Assembly (NCBI RefSeq): GCF_003634045.1
Contig: NZ_RBIM01000005.1
Coordinates: forward strand, 186,001-250,000
DNA from: Maricaulis maris
Lineage (GTDB): Bacteria; Pseudomonadota; Alphaproteobacteria; Caulobacterales; Maricaulaceae
Reading direction: 5' to 3'
DNA length: 64,000 nt
This document shows, piece by piece, positions 34,069 through 44,922 of this stretch; the stretch's first letter is position 1, and each line of letters begins with the position of its first letter. Both the position numbers and the translations under genes were made by a program. The notes under the pieces are model-generated. The model was not told the DNA's origin. It saw only the letters and a program-made list of their open reading frames with translations, and ran no database searches.

Positions 34069-35214
34069 TCAGGCCGATAGCGCCCGGTCGAGATCGGCGA
34101 TCTGGTCGGCCGGACTTTCCAGCCCGATCGAGAGCCGGATCAGGCTGTCGGCGACACCGGCTTCGGCCCGGGCTTCCGGTGACATCGAGGCATGGGTCAT
34201 CAGGGCCGGAATGCAGCACAGGCTTTCCACCCCGCCCAGCGACTGGGCCAGCGTGAAAATCTCCAGCGACGAGACGACGTCGCGCGGAGCGGGCGCGCCC
34301 TTGGCCAGTTCGAGGCTGATCAGCTGGCCGAACCCGTCCTGCTGGCGCAGGGCGAGGGCGTGGCCGGGGTGGCTTTCCAGTCCGGGATAATCGACCCGGG
34401 CGACGCGCGGATCGGCGTCCAGCCATCTGGCGACCTGAAGCGCGCTCTCGCACTGGGCCTTGGCCCGCAGCGGCAGGGTGCGCAGGCCTCGCAGGGCGAG
34501 ATAGCTGTCGAAGGCGGCGGCGCCCGTGCCGACGCAATTGGCCCACCAGGTCAGCTCGGCGACCCGTTCCGGATCGGCGCAGCACACCACGCCACCCACC
34601 ATGTCGGAATGGCCGTTGAGGAGTTTGGTCACCGATTGCACGGAATAGTCCGCGCCCCAGTCGAGTGGCCGCTGCAGGACTGGCGACATCACCGTATTAT
34701 CGACGGCCAGCTCGGTGCCGGCATTGCGGGCCAGGCGCACCAGGCCCTTGATGTCGGTGATGCGCAGGCGGGGATTGGACGGGGTCTCGGCGATGATCAG
34801 GGCGGCGTCCTCGTTGAGGGCGTCGGCGACCTTGTCGAGATCGGTGGTGTCGACATAGACCGGCACCAGACGACCGCCGCGACCGCGGGCATCGAGCAGG
34901 CGCCGTGTGCCGCCATAGGCGTCGTGCGAACAGATCACCCGGGCGCCATGTGGCAGGTCGTGCAGCAAGAGGTCGATCGCTGCCATGCCTGATCCGGTGA
35001 CGATGGCCCCGGCGGCGTTTTCCAGCTCGGCGATGGCGTCGGCCAGCAGTGAACGGCCCGGATTGGCGGTACGGGCATAGTCGAAGGCCGGCTGGATCGC
35101 CGGGTCCTCGCGCCGATAGGCGGTCGACAGCGACAGCGGCGGGATGACGGCGTTCCAGCTCCGGTCGGTGTTCAGACCGGCCCGGATGGCCTTGGTGCGT
35201 TGATCGCTCGACAT
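34069..35214 (-). CDS. metB: Cystathionine gamma-synthase-like trans-sulfuration enzyme
   Basis: PLP enzyme expected to join an acyl-homoserine with cysteine to give cystathionine, the third step of this operon. The 381 residues show YARTANPGRSLLADAIAELE near 45, GSGMAAIDL near 75, the PLP lysine in SVTKLLNGHSDMVGG near 190 and LRGLRTLPLR near 242. ATG 35214 follows CGGGAGCTGA; the longer frame to 35286 runs inside metX. The metX stop is one base upstream. Specificity could be direct sulfhydrylation (MetZ/MetY-like) instead, since family members are hard to separate by eye; gene order supports a methionine role. Confidence 0.85.
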   Translation of the reverse strand: MSSDQRTKAIRAGLNTDRSWNAVIPPLSLSTAYRREDPAIQPAFDYARTANPGRSLLADAIAELENAAGAIVTGSGMAAIDLLLHDLPHGARVICSHDAYGGTRRLLDARGRGGRLVPVYVDTTDLDKVADALNEDAALIIAETPSNPRLRITDIKGLVRLARNAGTELAVDNTVMSPVLQRPLDWGADYSVQSVTKLLNGHSDMVGGVVCCADPERVAELTWWANCVGTGAAAFDSYLALRGLRTLPLRAKAQCESALQVARWLDADPRVARVDYPGLESHPGHALALRQQDGFGQLISLELAKGAPAPRDVVSSLEIFTLAQSLGGVESLCCIPALMTHASMSPEARAEAGVADSLIRLSIGLESPADQIADLDRALSA

Positions 35215-35215
35215 G

Positions 35216-36154
35216 TCAGCTCCCGAAAATCTCGTCCAGTGTGGCGCCGATGATAGCGTCTTCCTTGAGGAAGGCGTCATGGCCAAAGACAGAGCTGAGC
35301 GTGATCAGCCGGCTCCGCGGTGTCCGCTTGGCGGCGTCGGCAATCTGGTCGGCGGGCACAAGCCGGTCCTCAAGCGCTGCGATGTAGGTCACCCGGCATT
35401 TCAGACCGCCGACCTCGACCCGGTGTTCGTCCATCGACCGTGACAGGGCAAGGAAACGTTGCGGGTCGACCGTGTCGGCCCAGGCTTCGCCACGCGCCGC
35501 CAGATAGGTGGCGACACCGCCGGCATCGCGGCTGTCCGGATCAGGATCGGCGAAGCGGGCCTCGAATTCGTCCGGTGTGCGATAGGTCGTCATGGCGAGG
35601 CGGCGGGCCAGGTCGAGTCCGGCCTTGCCATCGCCCAGGCGCAGCGCCATTTCGACCGTGTCGCGCTGGATCGAACGCCAGGCCTTGGCCATCTCGCTCG
35701 AGCGGTCGGCGGCCGAGATCACCACCAGTTCGCGCACCCGCTCCGGGGCCAATTCGGCCAGCGCCAGCCCGATCATGCCGCCATAGGAGGAACCGACAAT
35801 CGCCAGGTCGCGAATATCGGCCGCGTCGGCCAGGGCGAGAATGGCGCGGGCCTGGTCCTGTGTGGTCGGGAAGGGATGGATGTCGGCGCCGATGAAATCA
35901 AAGGACAGGATGCGATGGCGATTGGTATCGATCGGCTTGCCGGGGCCGGCCTGTTGACGCCACCAGCCTTCGCCCTCGACCGTGTCGGAGACATGGCGGT
36001 CAGACGAGATGCCGCCGAGGACCAGCACGGCCGGTGCGCCGTCCGGGCCGGTGATGCGTCCTGTGATGCGGACCGGGGAACCGGTCGCGGTCAGGGCGAT
36101 GGTCGAGATGTCGCGACATCGCAAGGCGGGTGGATGTTCCAAGGTCACGCTCAT
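35216..36154 (-). CDS. metX: Homoserine O-acyltransferase, MetX fold
   Basis: Activates homoserine by O-acetylation or O-succinylation, first committed step of methionine synthesis. The 312-residue alpha/beta-hydrolase-fold protein has the nucleophile motif VGSSYGGMIGLALAE near 125, the acid in EDRLVPADQ near 265, and the family histidine in GHDAFLKE near 295. That GHDAFL end is a MetX hallmark; the MetA family has a different fold. The acyl donor is not settled, since some MetX proteins use succinyl-CoA. It overlaps hom by four bases (ATGA) and abuts metB, so the three are one operon. Confidence 0.9.
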   Translation of the reverse strand: MSVTLEHPPALRCRDISTIALTATGSPVRITGRITGPDGAPAVLVLGGISSDRHVSDTVEGEGWWRQQAGPGKPIDTNRHRILSFDFIGADIHPFPTTQDQARAILALADAADIRDLAIVGSSYGGMIGLALAELAPERVRELVVISAADRSSEMAKAWRSIQRDTVEMALRLGDGKAGLDLARRLAMTTYRTPDEFEARFADPDPDSRDAGGVATYLAARGEAWADTVDPQRFLALSRSMDEHRVEVGGLKCRVTYIAALEDRLVPADQIADAAKRTPRSRLITLSSVFGHDAFLKEDAIIGATLDEIFGS

Positions 36155-37104
36155 CGCGTCCCGACCCTGTCCAGCAGCGCCCGGACATCTGACAGCACCG
36201 AGCCGGCGGTCGGTGCCTGGCCGGCACCCTTGCCATTGAGCACGATGGTGGTGCCGCTGGCGCAGCGGATTTCGACGGCGTTTTCCTCATTTTCGACCCG
36301 CGCCAACGGGTGGTCTTCCGGCAGGGCGATCAGGCGGACACTGGCGCTGACCCCGTCCTCGCCGGCGACCAGTTCAGCGAGCTGGCGATAACGCAGCCCG
36401 TGTTCGCGGGCCCCCAGTATCTGGCCGACCGAGAGGTCGAACAGGCTGTCGGCCGGGATGGTATGGGCGTCCGGCGCGATATCGAAGGCGGTGCGGGCGA
36501 TCAGGGCCAGCTTTGCGGCGGCGTCCAGCCCGTCCAGATCGGCGCTGGGGTCTTCCTCGGCAAAACCGGCGGCCTGGGCGGCGGTTATGGCGTCGTCAAA
36601 GCCGATGCCGTTTTCCAGCAGGCCGAGTACAAAATTGGAGGTGCCATTCAACACGCCGCGAACCCGGGTGATGGTCTCGCCGGCAGCTTTCAGGCGGGCG
36701 ACGGTCTCCAGCACCGGCACGCCACCGCCAACCGCGGCGGAATAGGCAAAGCCGGTGCCGGCGCGGCGGGCGCGGGCTTCAAGGTCCGGGCGGCGGGCGA
36801 TGACAGCCTTGTTGGCAGAGATGACATGGATGCCGCGTTCGACCGCGAGGGCCAACGCTTTCTCGGCAGCGGCGCAATCGGGAAGGCCGTCAATGACCAG
36901 GTCCGGCCCGGTATCGAAAGCGGCGGCGAGATCGGTCAGCCAAGCATAACGCTCATCGCCCCTGCGGCGTGGCTTGCGGGTGACGATGGCGGCGATCTCG
37001 ACCTGGGCTTCCATGGCTTCCAGCCCGGCCAGGACACCGGCATTGACCGTGCCGCAGCCCAGCAGGACCACGCGCAAGCGTGGTGTCAGAGCCGTCGCCG
37101 GCAT
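36151..37104 (-). CDS. hom: Homoserine dehydrogenase without ACT domain
   Basis: Reduces aspartate semialdehyde to homoserine with NAD(P)H. Visible: Rossmann motif VVLLGCGTVNAG near residue 11, NKAVIARRP near 95, and the signature VLNGTSNFVLGLLE near 150 running into AEEDPSADLDGLDAAAKLAL. At about 317 residues it ends where the catalytic domain ends, so the C-terminal ACT domain of ordinary bacterial enzymes (about 430 residues) is missing. The start is uncertain: ATG 37104 fits the family, ATG 37143 adds 13 residues, and neither has a strong ribosome binding site. It is first gene after the SAM-II riboswitch, followed by metX and metB. Confidence 0.9.
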   Translation of the reverse strand: MPATALTPRLRVVLLGCGTVNAGVLAGLEAMEAQVEIAAIVTRKPRRRGDERYAWLTDLAAAFDTGPDLVIDGLPDCAAAEKALALAVERGIHVISANKAVIARRPDLEARARRAGTGFAYSAAVGGGVPVLETVARLKAAGETITRVRGVLNGTSNFVLGLLENGIGFDDAITAAQAAGFAEEDPSADLDGLDAAAKLALIARTAFDIAPDAHTIPADSLFDLSVGQILGAREHGLRYRQLAELVAGEDGVSASVRLIALPEDHPLARVENEENAVEIRCASGTTIVLNGKGAGQAPTAGSVLSDVRALLDRVGTR

Positions 37105-37239
37105 TGTGTGAAGGGGGTAATCAAGCGCCGCAACCAGGGACATCGAACCACAATCCGTCTGGGCGGATAGCGCGGCACGCCGATTGCGGGATGCTGCCGA
37201 GGCGAAAATATGCGTGGCGTTTGCCGGGCCTCGTCTGAT

Positions 37240-37295
37240 CCGCTTTAGCCGCACTTTTTCCGCGCCCGCAAGCTAGACATCAAATCGGCGCGACT
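37240..37295 (-). ncRNA. SAM-II riboswitch upstream of hom-metX-metB
   Basis: On the minus strand the leader reads CGCGCC-GAUUUG, a short loop with UAGCUUGC, then GGGCGCG, an A-rich linker and GCGGCUAAAGC. The CGCGCC and GGCGCG arms form a perfect six-base P1, and the loop UAGC can pair with the later GCUA as the pseudoknot. GAUUUG, GCUUGC and GCUAAA are the conserved positions I recall for the SAM-II (metA) motif of alphaproteobacteria. It should bind S-adenosylmethionine and lower expression of the methionine operon. The predicted transcription start falls at its 5' edge. Confidence 0.88.
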
Positions 37296-37298
37296 TCA

Positions 37299-37326
37299 CG
37301 TATAAAGATATGTTTATATGTGTCAA
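37299..37326 (-). promoter_or_regulatory. Promoter of the hom-metX-metB operon
   Basis: Minus strand: TTGACA (37321-37326) and TATACG (37299-37304), separated by 16 bases of AT-rich spacer. The expected start about seven bases downstream coincides with the first base of the SAM-II aptamer, which supports both calls. Confidence 0.75.
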
Positions 37327-37354
37327 GGGCGAGCTTGCATGGAGGCCGCCGCCT

Positions 37355-37427
37355 ACCGCCTTCCCGCCCGACTGGCGGCGCGGATGCGCCAGAGTGGAAA
37401 GCCCGGTCCGGCCGGCGGGAAGGCGGT
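37355..37427. repeat. Inverted repeat with 14-base perfect arms
   Basis: ACCGCCTTCCCGCC at 37355-37368 and its exact complement at 37414-37427, with a 45-base GC-rich spacer. It lies just upstream of the methionine operon promoter and could be a structured transcript end or a remnant of a mobile palindrome. Confidence 0.7.
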
Positions 37428-37517
37428 CTGTTTGACGGTCTCCTTTCCTGGATTTGAGTGATCGACAGGCCGGCCCGCGCCACGGCGCTTACGCCTGGCG
37501 GTTCGGGCAGTTGAGGG

Positions 37518-37583: not shown

Positions 37584-37834
37584 ACGGAGATTTGGTCAGG
37601 GCCGTTACCGGCCCCGTCTCGAAACCGACAGGAACAAACGGTCGAGCTTTGTGCCGCCGTCCTGCCGATGGCCACGCCGGGTTGGTCTGGCGGTGTTTCC
37701 AGGCAACCGGACGAGCTCCGTACTCCCAACGCCCCCGGATCACCAATCCGGGCCTCGAGTGACGCGGGACAACGGGGATTATCCGCCAGGTTTGACGGGC
37801 GGGGATAAGTTTTTTGAAATTTCCCGCCCCACAC

Positions 37835-37942
37835 ACCGTCATCCCGGCGCAAGCCGGGACCCAGTCTGCGAGACAAGCTATTGCCATGCTTGGCGAAAAC
37901 GCGTGTGCGAGACTGGGTCCTGACTTCCGTCAGGATGACGGT
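37835..37942. repeat. Foldback element with GTCATCC/GGATGAC ends, copy 1
   Basis: About 108 bases beginning ACCGTCATCC and ending GGATGACGGT, an exact inverted terminal match. Inner arms also pair: CCCAGTCTGCGAGA near 37860 with GAGACTGGG near 37910, plus local CCCGGCGCAAGCCGGG and CCTGACTTCCGTCAGG hairpins. Its ends match two other elements in the window. Confidence 0.75.
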
Positions 37943-38033
37943 TTTTGAAGCGCAGGGCGGGGATAAACGCCCACTTTTCTTCCCCACGTGTGGGGAAGGA
38001 GGGTCGATGGCGCCGAGCGAGTCTTATCCTGGT

Positions 38034-38165
38034 GTCATCCCGGACGCAGGCCCGGCCCCGAGCCGGGCGGAGATCCGGGACCCATTATCGCGAAAGCTGG
38101 CAGAACCGGGCTGATGGGTCCCGGGTCTTCGCCCTGATCAAGTCAGGGCTCCGCCCGGGATGACA
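38034..38165. repeat. Foldback element with GTCATC/GATGAC ends, copy 2
   Basis: About 132 bases, TGTCATC at the left and GATGACA at the right. Internal pairing includes GGGACCCAT near 38088 with ATGGGTCCC near 38114, and GATCAAGTCAGGGC near the right end resembles copy 1. Probably the same repeat family. Confidence 0.7.
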
Positions 38166-38485: not shown

Positions 38486-39313
38486 CTAGGTCGACACAAA
38501 CGCCTTCTCGACCACGAAATCCGCCGGGGCTGCATTTGAGCCTTCGATGAAATTGCGGTCGAGGCAGATTTGTTTGACGTCTTTCAGCAGGCCTTCCGAG
38601 CCGCAGATCATGACGCGGTCGACAGCTGGGTCGAGGGGCGGGACGCCGAGGCGGTCGAAGAGTTCGCCGCTTTCGATCATGTCGGTGACGCGGCCTTTCA
38701 CCGGGCCGTCCTCGCGGGTGACCGAGGTGAAGTGGACCAGCTTCTCGCGGGCAAATTCGCCGATCAGCTCGTCATCCTTGACCGCTTCGACCAGCTCGAC
38801 GCCATAGGTCAGCTCGGCGGACTGGCGGCAGGTATGAGTGAGGATGACCTCGTCGAATTTCTCATAGGTCTCGGGATCGCGGATCAGGCTGGCGAAGGGC
38901 GCGATGCCGGTGCCGGTCGAGATCATGTAGAGGCGTTTGCCGGGCTTCAAGGCATCGAGCACCAGCGTGCCGACCGGTTTGCGGCCCAAGAGGACTTCAT
39001 CGCCGGCCTTGATGTGCTGCAGGCGCGAGGTCAGCGGCCCGTCCGGCACCTTGATCGAGTAGAAATCGAGCGCCTCATCCCAGAACGGGCTGGCGACGGA
39101 ATAGGCGCGCAGCAGCGGTTTGCCGTCCTCCTTGGGCAGGCCGATCATGATGAATTCGCCCGAGCGGAAGCGGAACGTATCCGGCCGCGTGATGCGGAAA
39201 TGGAAAAGCTGGTCGGTGTAATGGCTCACCGACAGCACCGTCTCAACCGTATAGGGGCCGGGCTTGGCGGAGATCGCATTCTTCGGGGCAGGCGCGGTCG
39301 CGGTCATGGTCAT
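38486..39313 (-). CDS. fpr: Ferredoxin/flavodoxin-NADP reductase
   Basis: Flavoenzyme of 275 residues that moves electrons between NADPH and ferredoxin or flavodoxin. FAD motif RAYSVASP near 70, NADP motif STGTGIAPFASLIRDPETYEKF (beginning near 130), MICGSEGLLKD near 235 and the bacterial Fpr-type C-terminus VVEKAFVST. The start ATG 39313 gives a 15-residue leader before the conserved core. It is the last gene of the sulfur operon, 45 bases after cysK, so it probably supplies reduced ferredoxin for the sulfite reductase; I infer this from position. Confidence 0.92.
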   Translation of the reverse strand: MTMTATAPAPKNAISAKPGPYTVETVLSVSHYTDQLFHFRITRPDTFRFRSGEFIMIGLPKEDGKPLLRAYSVASPFWDEALDFYSIKVPDGPLTSRLQHIKAGDEVLLGRKPVGTLVLDALKPGKRLYMISTGTGIAPFASLIRDPETYEKFDEVILTHTCRQSAELTYGVELVEAVKDDELIGEFAREKLVHFTSVTREDGPVKGRVTDMIESGELFDRLGVPPLDPAVDRVMICGSEGLLKDVKQICLDRNFIEGSNAAPADFVVEKAFVST

Positions 39314-39358
39314 CGTCTCGTACTCGGTTTTGTCGGTGAGGTCTGTCTGGCTCAGCGG

Positions 39359-40381
39359 TCAGGCCGTCACGCGCGGCGCTTCGGTATCGGCCCAGGGCGG
39401 AACAGGCAAGCCCCGCGAGGACAGGAAGTCCGGGTTGAACAGCTTGCCAGCATAGCGCGCGCCGCTGTCGCACAACATGGTCACGATGGTCTTGCCGGGA
39501 CCGAGATCGCGGGCCAGGCGGATGGCACCGGCGATATTGATACCGGCCGAACCGCCCAGGGACAGGCCCTCGGTCTTCACCAGATCAAACAGGATGGGCA
39601 GCATTTCCGCGTCCTCGACCCGGTAGACATGGTCGACCTCAAGGCCTTCCAGATTGCCGGTGATGCGGTTGACGCCGATGCCCTCGGTGATCGAGGAGCC
39701 CTCGCCCTTCAGCTCGCCCTTGGTGTAGTAATTATAGAGCGCGGCGCCGGCCGGATCAGCGGCGCCAATGGCGATGTCGGGCCTTTGGGCGCGGAGGGCC
39801 TCGGCAACGCCGGCCAATGTGCCGCCGGAGCCGACGGCACAGATGAAACCGTCAATATTGCCGCCGGTCTGATCCCAGATTTCCGGGCCGGTGGTCAGCT
39901 TGTGGGCGCGCTTGTTGGCCAGATTGTCGAACTGGTTGGCCCAGATCGCCCCGTTTGGCTGGCTCTCATTGAGTTCTTCGGCCAAGCGGCGCGAATAATG
40001 GACGAAATGGTTCGGGCTGGAGAAGGGGGCGGCATCGACTTCGATCAGACGGGCGCCGAAGGAGCGGATTGCGGCCTTCTTTTCTTCCGACTGGGTGCGC
40101 GGCATGACGATGATGACGTCATAGCCCAGCGCGCCGCCGACCAGGGCGAGACCGATTCCGGTATTGCCGGCCGTGCCCTCGACGATGGTGCCGCCCGGTC
40201 TCAGCGAGCCGTCAGCCTCCGCCTCGCGCACGATATTGAGCGCGGCGCGGTCCTTCACGGAGCCGCCCGGATTGAGGAATTCGGCCTTGCCGAGGATTTC
40301 GCAGCCGGTCGCGTCGGACGGGCCGTCGAGCCGGATCAGCGGCGTATTGCCGATCAGGTCGAGCACATGTTTGGCAGACAC
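39359..40381 (-). CDS. cysK: Cysteine synthase A
   Basis: PLP enzyme that makes cysteine from O-acetylserine and sulfide. The 340-residue protein opens with HVLDLIGNTPLIRL, then the PLP lysine in NPGGSVKDRAAL near 45, the substrate loop EGTAGNTGIGLA near 73 and GSGGTLAGVAEAL near 180. The start is GTG 40381, nine bases after GAAAGGA; the track of the frame upstream runs through cysH antisense and is not coding. The tail beyond residue 310 is somewhat longer than in E. coli CysK. It lies 25 bases after cysH in the sulfur operon. Confidence 0.93.
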   Translation of the reverse strand: MSAKHVLDLIGNTPLIRLDGPSDATGCEILGKAEFLNPGGSVKDRAALNIVREAEADGSLRPGGTIVEGTAGNTGIGLALVGGALGYDVIIVMPRTQSEEKKAAIRSFGARLIEVDAAPFSSPNHFVHYSRRLAEELNESQPNGAIWANQFDNLANKRAHKLTTGPEIWDQTGGNIDGFICAVGSGGTLAGVAEALRAQRPDIAIGAADPAGAALYNYYTKGELKGEGSSITEGIGVNRITGNLEGLEVDHVYRVEDAEMLPILFDLVKTEGLSLGGSAGINIAGAIRLARDLGPGKTIVTMLCDSGARYAGKLFNPDFLSSRGLPVPPWADTEAPRVTA

Positions 40382-40406
40382 GGGCGGTGTCCTTTCGTCT
40401 GTTCTT

Positions 40407-41516
40407 TTATTCGGCGGCGACTTGCGCCGGGGTGTGGATACCGCATTCGGTCTTGGACTGGCCAAGCCAGCGGCCCGAGCGGATATCGCCATCGGCCTGC
40501 ACCGGCGCGGTGCAGGTCCAGCAACCGATCGAGGCATACCCCATATCGGTCAGCGGGTGTCGCGGCAAATCGAAGCGCTGGAAATAGTCCTCGATCGCGG
40601 CAGCGTCCCAATTGGCCAGCGGATTGACCCGGATGCGGCCATTGATGCGCTCGACAACGGGCAGGCTCATGCGGCCGCCGCCATGGAAGCGTTTCCGGCC
40701 GGTGATCAACGCGTCGTAGTCGCCGATGATTTCGTCCAGCGGGCGAACCTTGCGCAAGGCGCAGCAGGCGTCCGGGTCGCGGCGCCACAGGCGATCATCA
40801 CTGTCTTCGCTGGCAACCTCTTCGGCGTCCGGCTTGAGCAGGCGGATATTGCTCAGGCCAAGCTGTTCGGTCAGCTGGCGCTGGTATTGTTCGGTCTGGG
40901 CGAAGAGACGGCCGGTATCGAGGAAGATGACCGGGGTCGCCGGATCGATCTGGGCGATCATGTGCAGACCGACAGCGGCCTCGGCGCCGAAGGAGGACAT
41001 GATGGCGACCTTGCCGACCCACTCATTCCTGATGGCATCGCGCAGGATGTCCTGCGGGGTCATGTCGCGATAGCGGGCATTGAGCGCGGCGAGGTCGTCT
41101 TCCGGCCGTTTGTGGCGGTGGCGGAAGAGTGGTGTGACATTGCCCCGGCCCGGCTGGTAGGCGTGGGCAAAACGGGTGCGGGCGCGAGCCCAGTCGGCTT
41201 CCAGCCCTTTGCGATCGGGATCGACATCGTCAAAGCCGACGCGTATCAGGTGCTGGGCCTGGTCGGGAATGAGATCGCCGACGGCGCGCAGCTTGCCGGT
41301 GTAACCGGCCCGCTCGCGCAGCTGGGTCGCCAGGGAAAAGCCCCGGCCGTCATTGAATTTGGGAAAGCGGATATCGACCCGCACAGCCCCGGCGATCTCG
41401 GCCTCGGCCTCGCGCCAGTCGGCATCGCCGTCCAGCTCCACGATGCGTCCACCACCGGCGGCCAGTTGGGCGTCGGCGACATTGCGGGTTTCGGTCTTGC
41501 GATCAAGCGTCAGCAT
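40407..41516 (-). CDS. cysH: DUF934-CysH fusion: adenylylsulfate reductase
   Basis: A 369-residue fusion. Residues about 1-115 are a DUF934 domain (IRFPKFNDGRGFSLATQLRE and LIPDQAQHLIRVGFDDV). Residues about 135-369 are a PAPS/APS reductase: MSSFGAEAAVGLHM near 170, LDTGRLFAQT near 195, and ECGIH near the end with catalytic C358. It also keeps C251-C252 and C332-x2-C335, the CC/CxxC set that binds the [4Fe-4S] cluster in APS reductases and is absent from PAPS-only enzymes, so APS is the likely substrate. ATG 41516 follows AAGGAGG and overlaps the cysI end by 14 bases. DUF934 is usually a separate gene beside cysI. Confidence 0.92.
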   Translation of the reverse strand: MLTLDRKTETRNVADAQLAAGGGRIVELDGDADWREAEAEIAGAVRVDIRFPKFNDGRGFSLATQLRERAGYTGKLRAVGDLIPDQAQHLIRVGFDDVDPDRKGLEADWARARTRFAHAYQPGRGNVTPLFRHRHKRPEDDLAALNARYRDMTPQDILRDAIRNEWVGKVAIMSSFGAEAAVGLHMIAQIDPATPVIFLDTGRLFAQTEQYQRQLTEQLGLSNIRLLKPDAEEVASEDSDDRLWRRDPDACCALRKVRPLDEIIGDYDALITGRKRFHGGGRMSLPVVERINGRIRVNPLANWDAAAIEDYFQRFDLPRHPLTDMGYASIGCWTCTAPVQADGDIRSGRWLGQSKTECGIHTPAQVAAE

Positions 41517-43140
41517 AGATGGCCTCCTTGAAGGCGTCGGATCCGACACGGCGCAGCGTGTCGATGAAGCGCTCATTGTCGGCGCGAATGTCGAGATAGG
41601 TTTCCAGCGCGCGGGCGATCGCGGCGGGGACGTCCTCACCGGCCAGGCCCTTGCCGATGATCGAGCCGATGGCAGCATCGGCCCCGAAGGCCCCGCCCAG
41701 GGTGATCTGGTAGAATTCCTCACCGCGCTTGTCGACGCCGAGCACGCCGATATGGGCAACATGGTGGTGGCCGCAGGCATTGATGCAGCCATCAATCTTG
41801 ATGGTCACATCGCCGGCCTTCTCCGACAGGCCCTTTTCCTCCAGCAGGCTGGAAATCGCTTGGGCGATCGGGATCGAGCGGGCATTGGCGAGATTGCAAT
41901 AATCCAGGCCCGGGCAGGCGACGATATCGGTGGCGAGGCCGGCATTGGCAACGGCGAGACCGGCGTCGACCAGACCATTCCAGACGGCCTCGATGTCCTC
42001 ATTGCGGACATGCGGCAGGATCAGGTTCTGGTCCGGCGTGGCGCGGATTTCGTCAAAGCCAAAACGCTCGGCCAGATCGGCGACGGCGTCCATCTGCGTG
42101 TCGGTGATATCACCGGGCGTGCCGCCGATGGGTTTCAGCGAGATGACCAGCGAAGACAGGCCATCAACCGCATGGTCACGGCGATTGCGGTCGAGCCAGC
42201 GGGCGAAGGCACGGTTCTCCGTCACTGGAACGGGCGTCGGTTCGACCGCTTTCGGCTGGTCGAAAAAGCTGCGGATGCGGGCGATTTCCTCGGCCGGGAG
42301 TTTCAGCTCGCCATCCCGGATCACCGCCCATTCATCCTCGACCTGGCGGCTATATTCCTCGGCGCCCAGGGCTTCGACCAGGATCTTGATCCGGGCCTTG
42401 TAGAGATTGTCGCGGCGGCCGTGCTGATTGTACACGCGCAGGCAGGCGGTGAGGTAGGACAACAGGTCCTCCGGCGCCAGGAAGGGATTGATCAGCTGGG
42501 CCAGGCGCGGCGTGCGGCCCTGGCCGCCCCCGACCCAGACCTCAAATCCGGTTGTCCCGGCCTCGTTCCGGACGATCTGCAGGCCGATATCATGCACGCG
42601 GATGCCGGCGCGGTCGGCCTTGGCCCCGTTGACGGCGATCTTGAACTTGCGCGGCAGGAAGGTGAATTCCGGGTGGAAGCTCGACCATTGGCGCACGATT
42701 TCGGCCCAGGGGCGACCATCTTCCAGCTCGTCGGCGGCGGCACCGGCAAACGGGTCGGCGGTGACATTGCGGATGCAATTGCCCGAGGTCTGGATGGCGT
42801 GCATCTCGACGGCGGCGAGGCGGTCGAGAATGTCGGGAATGTCGACAAGGGCCGGCCAATTGTACTGGATATTGGTGCGCGTCGTGAAATGGCCATAGCC
42901 GCGGTCATAATCGCGGGCGATGCCGGCCAGGGTGCGCATCTGGGCGCTGTTGAAGGTCCCGTAGGGGATCGCCACCCGCAGCATGTAGGCGTGCAGCTGC
43001 AGATAGACGCCATTCATCAGGCGCAGCGGCTTGAACTGGTCCTCGGTCAGACGACCGTCCAGACGGCGTTCGACCTGGTCGCGGAATTCCGCGATCCGGT
43101 CCGCCACCATGGCGTGGTCGTAGCTGTCATACTTGTACAT
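41503..43140 (-). CDS. cysI: Sulfite reductase, siroheme/[4Fe-4S] hemoprotein
   Basis: Reduces sulfite to sulfide with six electrons. The 545-residue protein has the duplicated nitrite/sulfite reductase layout. Siroheme-cluster cysteines are C409-x5-C415 (CPGLDYCNLANA) and C452-x3-C456 (GCINACGHHHVAH). Other family segments are YGHFTTRTNIQYNWP near 78 and ASGNCIRNVT-like TSGNCIRNVT near 118. No CysJ flavoprotein is present, so ferredoxin reduced by the operon's own Fpr is the likely donor. It starts three bases after the DUF2849 gene. Confidence 0.95.
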   Translation of the reverse strand: MYKYDSYDHAMVADRIAEFRDQVERRLDGRLTEDQFKPLRLMNGVYLQLHAYMLRVAIPYGTFNSAQMRTLAGIARDYDRGYGHFTTRTNIQYNWPALVDIPDILDRLAAVEMHAIQTSGNCIRNVTADPFAGAAADELEDGRPWAEIVRQWSSFHPEFTFLPRKFKIAVNGAKADRAGIRVHDIGLQIVRNEAGTTGFEVWVGGGQGRTPRLAQLINPFLAPEDLLSYLTACLRVYNQHGRRDNLYKARIKILVEALGAEEYSRQVEDEWAVIRDGELKLPAEEIARIRSFFDQPKAVEPTPVPVTENRAFARWLDRNRRDHAVDGLSSLVISLKPIGGTPGDITDTQMDAVADLAERFGFDEIRATPDQNLILPHVRNEDIEAVWNGLVDAGLAVANAGLATDIVACPGLDYCNLANARSIPIAQAISSLLEEKGLSEKAGDVTIKIDGCINACGHHHVAHIGVLGVDKRGEEFYQITLGGAFGADAAIGSIIGKGLAGEDVPAAIARALETYLDIRADNERFIDTLRRVGSDAFKEAIYADA

Positions 43141-43143
43141 GGG

Positions 43144-43434
43144 TCACGCGGTCGCTTGTGTGTGGGTGGAGCCGGTGGTCGGGCCGGTCAGGCGGATGCC
43201 CTCGCGGCGCCATTTCTGGCCGCCGGGCCTGTGTGATCCCGGCACGTCATCCTCGAGATCAATCAGATAGGCGCCGACGGCGATGTGACTTTCATCCGAG
43301 GCGATTTCGAGCGTCGCATCGGCCTGATCCTCGTCGAGACGGGCGGCCTCGGCGAGATCGGTCGACCACTGGCCGGTGGCGGTGCGATAGATCACCCGGC
43401 CATCGGTGAGGCGGTTGGCGGTCACGGTCTTCAT
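43144..43434 (-). CDS. DUF2849 protein in the cys operon
   Basis: A 96-residue protein of the DUF2849 type, a family found beside sulfite reductase genes in alphaproteobacteria. Visible: VTANRLTDGRVIYRTATGQW at the start and VGAYLIDLEDD near 55. No cysteine or membrane segment. It overlaps cysG by four bases (ATGA) and ends three bases before cysI. Function unknown; position suggests help with siroheme handling or sulfite reductase assembly, but nothing in the sequence proves it. Confidence 0.88.
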   Translation of the reverse strand: MKTVTANRLTDGRVIYRTATGQWSTDLAEAARLDEDQADATLEIASDESHIAVGAYLIDLEDDVPGSHRPGGQKWRREGIRLTGPTTGSTHTQATA

Positions 43435-44828
43435 GCGAATTGCTCCCGCTCGGCCGGAGCCTTGGCACTGCCCGCCAGGGCGGCACCGGCAACCTCGCCG
43501 ACAATCATGATCGTGGGACCGGAAATAGCCTCGCGTTCGACCAGGGCGGCGAGATCGCCGAGCGTGCCGAAGACACGGCGCTCCGTGTCCAGCGTGCCGT
43601 TCTCGATAAGGGCGACCGGCGTGGAGGGATTCCGACCGGCCGCAACCATCTTCGCCTGGATGTCCGGCGCGGCGCCGACGCCCATGTAGAAGACCGTCGT
43701 GGAGTTGGGTGCTGACAGGGCCCGGTAATCGGCGTCCGGCCCGTCCTGCTTGACCACGCCCGAGGCAAACGTCACCGATTGAGCATGGTCGCGATGGGTC
43801 AGGGGAATTCCCGCGGACGCGGCGCAGGCGACGGCTGCGGTGATGCCCGGCGTCACTTCGACTGCGATACCGGCGGCGCGAACCACGTCCAGCTCTTCGC
43901 CGCCGCGCCCGAAGACAAACGGGTCGCCGCCCTTGATGCGGACCACGCGCTGACCCTTGCGGGCCTCGCGGACCAGAATCTGGCCGATCTCGTCCTGCGG
44001 GACGGGGTGATGACCCTTGGTCTTGCCGACATCGATGCGCAGCGCATCGCGGCGGGCCAGATCCATCACGCCTTGCGAAACCAGGCGATCATGCACGATC
44101 ACATCGGCCTCGCGCAGCAGGCGGGCGGCCTTGAGGGTGAGGAGGTCGGGATCGCCGGGACCGGCGCCGACCAGATGGACAATGCCGGTCTTGGCGGACG
44201 TCTCGCCGTTCAGCTCACGCAGCATTTCGCGGCGGGCGCCGATCTTGTCACCGGCGAGGGCGAGGTCGCGGGCCTTGCCGCGCAGGGCGCGTTCCCAGAA
44301 GGCGCGGCGGTCGTCGAATTTCGACAGGACAGACTTCACCGTGCCGCGCAGTTCGCGGGCGAGATCGGCAATGACGCCGATCCGTGCCGGCAGGACCTGT
44401 TCGATCGCGGCGCGGATATCGACCGAGAGGACCGGCGCGGCGCCGCCGGAGGCGATCGAAACGACAATGCCGTCGCGGTCGACAATGGCCGGGGTCTGGA
44501 AGTCGGAGGCGGCGGGGCTGTCGACGATATTGACCAGCGCGCCTTGGCTGCGGCCCCAACGGGCCAGCTTGGCCACGTCGCGGTCTTCACCGCCGGCCAG
44601 GAAAATCAATGTCGCGCCACGGAGGTCCCGCCGTGTCGGCACACGGCGGATTATCTTCGCATATTGGGCGATATCCGAAGCAACAGGATCATGGGTCTCA
44701 CCGGTGAACCAGAGCAACCGGGCTGGGGAAGACACGAACAGGCGTGCTTTCGGCTCGGCCATCGGGCCATGCCCGACAACGATCACCGTCTGTCCATCTA
44801 GGGGAATGGAGGCAGGAAATACACGCAT
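43431..44828 (-). CDS. cysG: Siroheme synthase (methyltransferase, dehydrogenase, ferrochelatase)
   Basis: Makes siroheme from uroporphyrinogen III for CysI. About 465 residues. N-terminal 200: Rossmann domain (VIVVGHGPMAEPKARLF near 17) for precorrin-2 oxidation and iron insertion. Residues 215-460: SUMT methyltransferase, with VHLVGAGPGDPDLLTLKA near 217, RIKGGDPFVFGRGGEE near 290, and GIPLTHRDHAQS near 340. The nucleotide motif is GHGPMA rather than the usual GGGxVA. ATG 44828 is chosen; GTG 44834 is an alternative. First gene of the six-gene sulfur operon and divergent from a LysR gene. Confidence 0.94.
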   Translation of the reverse strand: MRVFPASIPLDGQTVIVVGHGPMAEPKARLFVSSPARLLWFTGETHDPVASDIAQYAKIIRRVPTRRDLRGATLIFLAGGEDRDVAKLARWGRSQGALVNIVDSPAASDFQTPAIVDRDGIVVSIASGGAAPVLSVDIRAAIEQVLPARIGVIADLARELRGTVKSVLSKFDDRRAFWERALRGKARDLALAGDKIGARREMLRELNGETSAKTGIVHLVGAGPGDPDLLTLKAARLLREADVIVHDRLVSQGVMDLARRDALRIDVGKTKGHHPVPQDEIGQILVREARKGQRVVRIKGGDPFVFGRGGEELDVVRAAGIAVEVTPGITAAVACAASAGIPLTHRDHAQSVTFASGVVKQDGPDADYRALSAPNSTTVFYMGVGAAPDIQAKMVAAGRNPSTPVALIENGTLDTERRVFGTLGDLAALVEREAISGPTIMIVGEVAGAALAGSAKAPAEREQFA

Positions 44829-44922
44829 GCTCACTCGTCCGATCCTGCGCCTTCGTGGCGCGACGAGTTCAATATTTCTATTCGGTGCAGCGATTTCAAA
44901 CGACGATTATTGGCTTTTGACG

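Follow-up and report, generated by a model that had tools for sequence, protein, structure and literature searches.

A likely SAM-II riboswitch at the transcript start of hom-metX-metB in Maricaulis maris, behind a promoter that probably contains a SahR operator

The SAM-II aptamer has been described as a SAM-binding RNA that discriminates against SAH (PMC1273637). As far as the consulted portion of this 2005 study reports, a promoter is located just before the P1 stem of the element, and Bordetella and Coxiella are named in the legend of the alignment. In a 2007 survey, terminators were reported together with SAM-II in alpha- and betaproteobacteria (PMC2258182, in the sections consulted). According to the consulted text of a study from 2014, SAM_alpha precedes hom-metXC in Hyphomonadaceae, and hom-metXC of Oceanicaulis alexandrii is under the joint control of SAM_alpha and SahR (PMC4239095). 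The same study describes metXZ, an orphan betaproteobacterial RNA with a pseudoknot, which is located before metX and, in Methylophilales, Nitrosospira and Thiobacillus, before metZ; in the consulted part of that paper the authors give no ligand for metXZ and do not call it SAM-II (PMC4239095). In addition, deletion of sahR is reported in the consulted excerpt of PMC8877191 to raise sahR expression in the alphaproteobacterium Ensifer aridi.

Here, we analysed a stretch of 64,000 nucleotides from Maricaulis maris (contig NZ_RBIM01000005.1, positions 186,001 to 250,000), hereafter the window, and found no paper on a riboswitch in Maricaulis. Going by what the consulted text of PMC4239095 says of Oceanicaulis alexandrii, the window is another case of the published SAM_alpha and SahR arrangement. 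An initial sequence-only reading had placed a SAM-II riboswitch before hom and had contrasted this with the usual location before metA or metX. The placement before hom holds; as a novelty it does not, since it was reported in 2014 (PMC4239095, in the part consulted). We consider it highly probable that a SAM-II riboswitch is located at the transcript start of hom-metX-metB, behind a promoter whose spacer and -10 box constitute a SahR operator. The aptamer, the operator, the regulator gene, their conservation and the gene order are the observations on which this reading is built, and the coordinates are given in Table 1.

Table 1. Features of the hom-metX-metB control region and operon (window coordinates)
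Feature	Position	Strand	Basis
-35 box TTGACA	37321..37326	-	sequence; many relatives have a TTGAC-like hexamer in this position
-10 box TATACG	37299..37304	-	sequence; 16 nt spacer from the -35 box
Probable SahR operator CATATAAACATATCTTTATACG, occupying the spacer and the -10 box	37299..37320	-	genome scan; family loci
SAM-II (SAM_alpha) aptamer	37239..37292	-	RF00521 30.7 bits; R1 69.6 bits (R1 training sequence); both helices covary
Leader from aptamer to hom, with the AATCGGCG block and a hairpin near the start codon	37144..37238	-	sequence, folding, complementarity
hom, 330-aa homoserine dehydrogenase	36151..37143	-	PF00742 158.5 bits, PF03447 41.1 bits; start by genus comparison
metX	35216..36154	-	PRK08775 homoserine O-succinyltransferase MetX, 377.9 bits (cut-off 296); 4-base overlap with hom
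metB, cystathionine gamma-synthase type	34069..35214	-	TIGR02080 444.1 bits, under the cut-off of 504.55

Covariance scanning (cmscan) with the SAM_alpha model RF00521 yielded a match at 37301-37224 on the minus strand that spans the full model, positions 1-79 of 79, with an E value of 2.9e-5 for a search space of 351 bases. Its 30.7 bits lie below the gathering score of 36 bits, and a default Rfam scan of the whole window therefore gives no match. Correspondingly, the Rfam check proposed by the sequence-only reading is answered positively at a sub-threshold setting and negatively at the default one. Within the whole 3.57 Mb genome the aptamer is nevertheless the best RF00521 match, the runner-up reaching 15.3 bits. 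P1 comprises six pairs (37292-37287 with 37266-37261), and the pseudoknot joins 37270-37273 with 37245-37242 and, after a bulged A, 37275-37277 with 37241-37239. The SAM-II signatures GATTTG (37286-37281), GCTTGC (37273-37268) and GCTAAA (37249-37244) can be read directly from the sequence. Thus, the SAM-II identity proposed beforehand is borne out by the genome-best though sub-threshold match, the signatures, covariation and conservation; likewise, the six-base P1 and the pseudoknot complementarity noticed at that stage can both be read in the sequence, and both covary. Among 32 distinct named loci with the window's aptamer core, hand-picked among the matches listed (L099 was scanned twice and counted once), 12 exceeded the RF00521 cut-off in a covariance scan. 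Because these 12 share their core with the loci that fail, the cut-off divides one aptamer group and does not exclude it. The remaining sub-threshold Rfam matches in 37100-37450 (Bp2_287 with 21.8 of 70 bits, mir-341, b55 and mir-2766) lie far under their cut-offs and were set aside as chance.

Covariation was assessed in alignment A1, which holds 70 of 139 distinct aptamers: the 128 below 80 nt were thinned by similarity to 70, and 11 aptamers with long inserts were omitted. As 60 of the 70 sequences stem from loci fetched by a pattern that fixed P1 and the loop core, the invariance of P1 in A1 is largely by construction. The unpaired core GATTTG, CTTGC and GCTAAA is conserved in A1 as well, in the other sequences again largely by construction; the window's own core was found by the sequence-only reading and by RF00521, and is not. 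Over 13 pairs, standard pairs fill 89.1% of the cells in the 70 sequences (94.3% in helix 1 and 84.7% in helix 2), and seven pairs show changes on both sides, four in helix 1 and three in helix 2. In a shuffle control, none of 500 alignments scored as high on any of five covariation measures. All slid structures were far lower both in the cells paired (at most 58.7%) and in the covariation score; on two of the five measures, slides +1 and +3 matched or surpassed the proposed structure, with as many pairs showing two-sided changes and slightly more pair types. None of the search steps fixed the pseudoknot pairs 21-67, 22-66 and 23-65. Pair 22-66 is present as UA (28), UG (11), CG (5), AU (4), GC (2) and GU (1) and is unpaired in 19 sequences, and at 21-67, 36 of 69 sequences form no pair. 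Taken together, the alignment argues for both P1 and the pseudoknot by covariation. A decayed or chance look-alike of SAM-II without function, to which the 30.7 bits below the Rfam cut-off would lend some colour, appears extremely improbable in view of the core conserved in 70 diverse sequences (partly owing to how these were fetched), the covariation beyond the fetched core and the genus-wide position before methionine genes.

The distribution of the aptamer was followed with RF00521 and with R1, a covariance model built from A1. At E <=0.01, RF00521 matched 27 of 61 relatives, at least three of them by chance; in G007, G013 and G035 the RF00521 locus is not the aptamer, and R1 places the aptamer elsewhere in all three. 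None of 14 control genomes was matched by RF00521 at E 0.01. Only 4 of the 61 relatives, all belonging to one neighbouring family, pass the RF00521 cut-off. All but one of the 19 genus genomes yield an R1 match for the aptamer, with E values running from 4e-16 to 2e-14; three of these 18 matches, in G000, G004 and G011, the window included, are R1 training sequences. The sole genus genome without a match is a 69%-complete assembly. Moreover, R1 matched 33 of the 61 relatives, 65 of 137 family genomes (E up to 0.01, some of them weak), 220 of 387 genomes of a class sample and 140 of 397 of a phylum sample, the two samples overlapping. All four canonical SAM-II loci that pass RF00521, two of which served as R1 training sequences, were recovered by R1 at the same places with 43.3-49.3 bits. 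A pattern scan of named genomes returned at least 118 loci, the taxa being a sample and no census. The default Rfam threshold overlooks a known riboswitch class in most of the bacterial family that carries the aptamer.

Several variants were observed among these loci. Two SAM-II aptamers of the same type are located within one locus in L089, L154, L187 and L151; in the first three, their starts are 118, 168 and 2034 bases apart, respectively, and the second aptamer has a different P1 sequence. Eleven aptamers (L094, L097, L098, L107, L110, L129, L132, L138, L144, L166 and L176) contain an extra insert between P1 and GCTAAA, several of these being hairpin-like by eye. The aptamer core was also seen before metK in L187; in L094 it is followed by a MetN-like gene and in L160 by a MetA gene, each of which scores below its family cut-off. 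In three records labelled Acidimicrobiia (L113, with 44.3 bits on RF00521, L125 and L182), the proteobacterial aptamer core precedes a protein that clusters with an apparent methionine synthase (as judged by eye), which points to either mis-binning or transfer. In the window itself, a GC-rich inverted repeat with 27-base arms (78%) is located at 37355-37427, some 30 bases in front of the promoter; 37825-37952 and 38033-38165 hold additional repeats. Farther upstream, 38486-44834 comprises a sulfur-assimilation neighbourhood with ferredoxin-NADP reductase-like and cysteine synthase-type proteins, in which frames for PAPS reductase, sulfite reductase and siroheme synthase were recognised by eye.

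Six bases separate the -10 box from P1, and the predicted transcription start at approximately 37292 is the first base of P1. A strict sigma-70 scan, which accepts only -10 boxes ending in T, lists no promoter here. Conservation in relatives supports a putative promoter at the start of the aptamer, and the aligned TTGACA/TATACG promoter of the sequence-only reading is supported by the conserved hexamers, its start being a prediction. Moreover, the promoter spacer and the -10 box together form a near-palindrome, CATATAAACATATCTTTATACG. Two operator-like sites with up to three mismatches are present in the genome, the window's and one between metK and metF, and the reversed-pattern control gave no site in the genome at the same limit. 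Scoring covered 47 of 48 R1 loci (L200-L247), 42 of them from family f1. In 40 of the 42 family loci with the aptamer, the operator was found with 1-4 mismatches, 6-8 bases upstream of the P1 sequence GCGCC, and the minimum in 2595 random 70-base windows from the same loci was eight mismatches. The two family loci without the operator are those of G020 and G036; L224 (G017) was excluded from the count by the position filter, and the operator is visible in the same genome as L033. No operator within six mismatches was found in 58 elements from the 57 best class- or phylum-level loci, two elements reaching seven. Among the matches listed for named genomes, where 118 of 119 elements were scored (one being too close to a contig end), only those of Oceanicaulis HTCC2633 (L142) and L192 lay within six mismatches, both with three; the L192 element is identical to that of G004 and hence not independent. 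Judged by the description and not by a motif logo, these sites agree with what is expected of the SahR regulon in alphaproteobacteria, namely a palindrome of some 20 bp next to genes of the SAM cycle (metK, metF, sahR). The promoter core is therefore probably also a SahR operator, which the sequence-only reading had overlooked.

The strongest of 16 ArsR-type HTH matches in this genome is a frame of 345 codons that encodes an HTH_5 and a Methyltransf_11 domain. Its orthologues occur in 58 of 61 relatives and are missing from G018, G020 and G028. We fetched 30 regulator loci, 18 from the window's genus and 12 from other genera. In 10 of these 12, the regulator gene lies beside metF with the operator just upstream at 0-5 mismatches, and in the other two (L276 and L277) the regulator gene has neither metF adjacency nor the operator. 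In the 18 window-genus loci, the regulator gene has neither metF as a neighbour nor the operator (best 8-10 mismatches), so the link between regulator and site is drawn from the other genera. Since 10 of the 12 loci there pair the two beside metF, the operator can be tied to the ArsR-methyltransferase regulator, which probably is SahR. G020 has neither the operator nor a regulator match, G018 (89% complete) has the operator and no regulator match at E 1e-30, and G036 has the aptamer and the regulator and lacks the operator. The coincidence of the site with the -10 box and the window-genus regulator gene without such an operator could also be explained by a riboswitch acting alone, the palindrome being a mere AT-rich promoter core read by no protein. 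This explanation seems to us improbable: 22 bases are kept at few mismatches and near-fixed spacing throughout the family loci and are absent from the 58 outside elements, the operator recurs in the genome itself only between metK and metF, and in 10 of the 12 loci from other genera it immediately precedes the ArsR-methyltransferase gene that adjoins metF.

In line with the SAM-II class, the aptamer is located before methionine-synthesis genes, and the hom-metX-metB operon postulated behind it is supported by Pfam and NCBIfam matches and by the gene order. The hom product contains the NAD-binding and catalytic domains, and no further Pfam domain was matched; the start of metB at 35214 was read by eye, the mechanical open reading frame beginning at 35286. 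The riboswitch together with the probable repressor site very likely controls this three-gene methionine operon. In the 42 family loci, the first of these genes behind the aptamer is hom in 33 and metX in 9. The genome harbors a second hom in the form of an aspartokinase-type domain fusion, followed by the homoserine kinase gene thrB. Within the genus, the 12 hom-first genomes have two hom genes each and the 6 metX-first genomes one each, and for this reason the switched hom appears to be an isozyme of the methionine branch. Of the 22 hom-first genomes outside the genus, 20 were searched, and 16 of these contain two or more hom genes; the switched copy thus appears to be mostly an extra one on the methionine side. 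The sequence-only reading had extended control by the riboswitch to threonine flux, a claim that fails in the window's genome because of the second, aspartokinase-fused hom and the adjacent thrB. In the near-complete genomes G022, G115 and G125, as well as in the incomplete G081, the switched hom is the only one found, and threonine gating could hold in the first three. Two copies of the aptamer are present in G065 (C1:496298 and 538671), each near a hom match. In L100, and in L153 by BLAST cluster only, the aptamer core precedes a Hom whose N-terminal extension resembles the one in the aspartokinase-Hom fusion.

How binding of SAM would be relayed to the operon was approached through the leader. 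Its block AATCGGCG is complementary to CGCCGATT in the aptamer. In 7 of the 11 hom-first leaders of the genus, AATCGGCG is the longest aptamer-complementary stretch, in L207 it lies inside a longer one, and L202, L210 and L217 have other longest stretches. Over 41 family loci, the longest complementarity between aptamer and leader averaged 7.66 vs. 6.40 in shuffles, a modest excess, with 8 of the 41 at p <=0.05. When the aptamer was held bound in 10 leaders, the predicted accessibility of the ribosome site fell by more than 0.04 in four, rose clearly in L214 and was approximately unchanged in five, so that no consistent effect emerged. Alternatively, the aptamer may act via transcription termination, as inferred for many alpha- and betaproteobacterial SAM-II elements. 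Many of the latter are followed by terminators (PMC1273637 and PMC2258182, in the portions consulted), and many named copies among the matches listed have a hairpin and a U-run downstream (by eye, uncounted). No intrinsic terminator-like site was found in 37050-37450, which leaves room for Rho-dependent termination, and, by eye, no hairpin with a following U-run is seen in the 106 bases that separate GCTAAA from the hom ATG. We therefore rate termination as rather unlikely, though clearly less so than the riboswitch acting alone. As no terminator was found between the aptamer and hom, control of translation or later folding of the leader is more likely than simple attenuation.

Taken together, the SAM-II and SahR reading suggests the following scheme. 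Its effectors, SAM and SAH, are taken from characterised family members; we also infer that the response is an OFF response, and by what step it follows the binding of SAM. At low SAH, SahR would cover the -10 box and block initiation, and SAH would release it from the operator. When SAM is high, P1 and the pseudoknot would form around the ligand in the nascent leader, and the operon would be shut off. The operon is thus probably subject to two controls, a repression relieved by SAH and a shut-off triggered by SAM. The gated hom would serve the methionine branch, threonine being supplied via the aspartokinase-Hom fusion and thrB. This would represent a compact natural device that possibly senses SAM and SAH together, and it would link the capture of a gene, here an additional hom, with that gene coming under the control of SAM.

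Among the matches listed, the window's aptamer core is followed by metX in Ralstonia, Cupriavidus and Herminiimonas; in Nitrosospira and Methylophilales HTCC2181, the gene behind it is metZ. As far as PMC4239095 describes metXZ outside its Figure S2, the two share conserved blocks, the pseudoknot, target genes and distribution, and the degenerate M (A or C) of the metXZ consensus could correspond to A1 column 64, which is C in 53 of 70 sequences and otherwise mostly A by eye. As the gene targets of the core match the distribution given for metXZ and 12 of 32 named loci exceed the RF00521 cut-off, metXZ is very probably a SAM-II element and looks like the same subtype as the window's, judging from the sequences and the consulted text. 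We found no paper that equates metXZ with SAM-II, supplementary Figure S2 of the 2014 study aside. The unassigned betaproteobacterial metXZ element could hence be filed under SAM-II. We dropped the idea that betaproteobacterial SAM-II as such is new, given Bordetella in 2005 (PMC1273637) and the terminators in 2007 (PMC2258182), both in the parts consulted. On a broader view, the arrangement would constitute a 90-bp gate of fixed geometry for the SAM:SAH ratio, with the operator in the promoter core and the aptamer at +1, in much of the family and often before a duplicated, methionine-only hom, and the same subtype would explain metXZ as a SAM riboswitch; the chances of this view being right or wrong appear to us evenly balanced.

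Compared with the SAM-II metA element as described in the consulted part of PMC1273637, the window's element likewise has one P1, an H-type pseudoknot, the GATTTG, CTTGC and GCTAAA blocks, a putative promoter before P1 and methionine genes downstream. It differs from that element in scoring under the Rfam cut-off and in the probable SahR-type operator that overlaps its promoter, and from the RF00521 consensus in its P1, GCGCC with GGCGC, and in its short distal pseudoknot (C-G, U-A/U-G, where the consensus has CGGCC with GGCCg). SAM-II long loops (RF01726) belongs to the same class and is a different family; with 13.3 bits against a cut-off of 44, it was rejected as the family of the window's aptamer. 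Oceanicaulis sp. HTCC2633 (L142) has the window's aptamer core, with the operator at the same place; NCBIfam returned nothing at E 1e-60 for the frame downstream of the aptamer there, which was grouped with Hom proteins only by BLAST clustering. The closest described system is hom-metXC of Oceanicaulis alexandrii, which the window matches in gene order and in the pair of controls, as far as PMC4239095 reports them in the part consulted. Unlike that case, the present one concerns another genome, and here the geometry of the control region is given in full and traced through the family.
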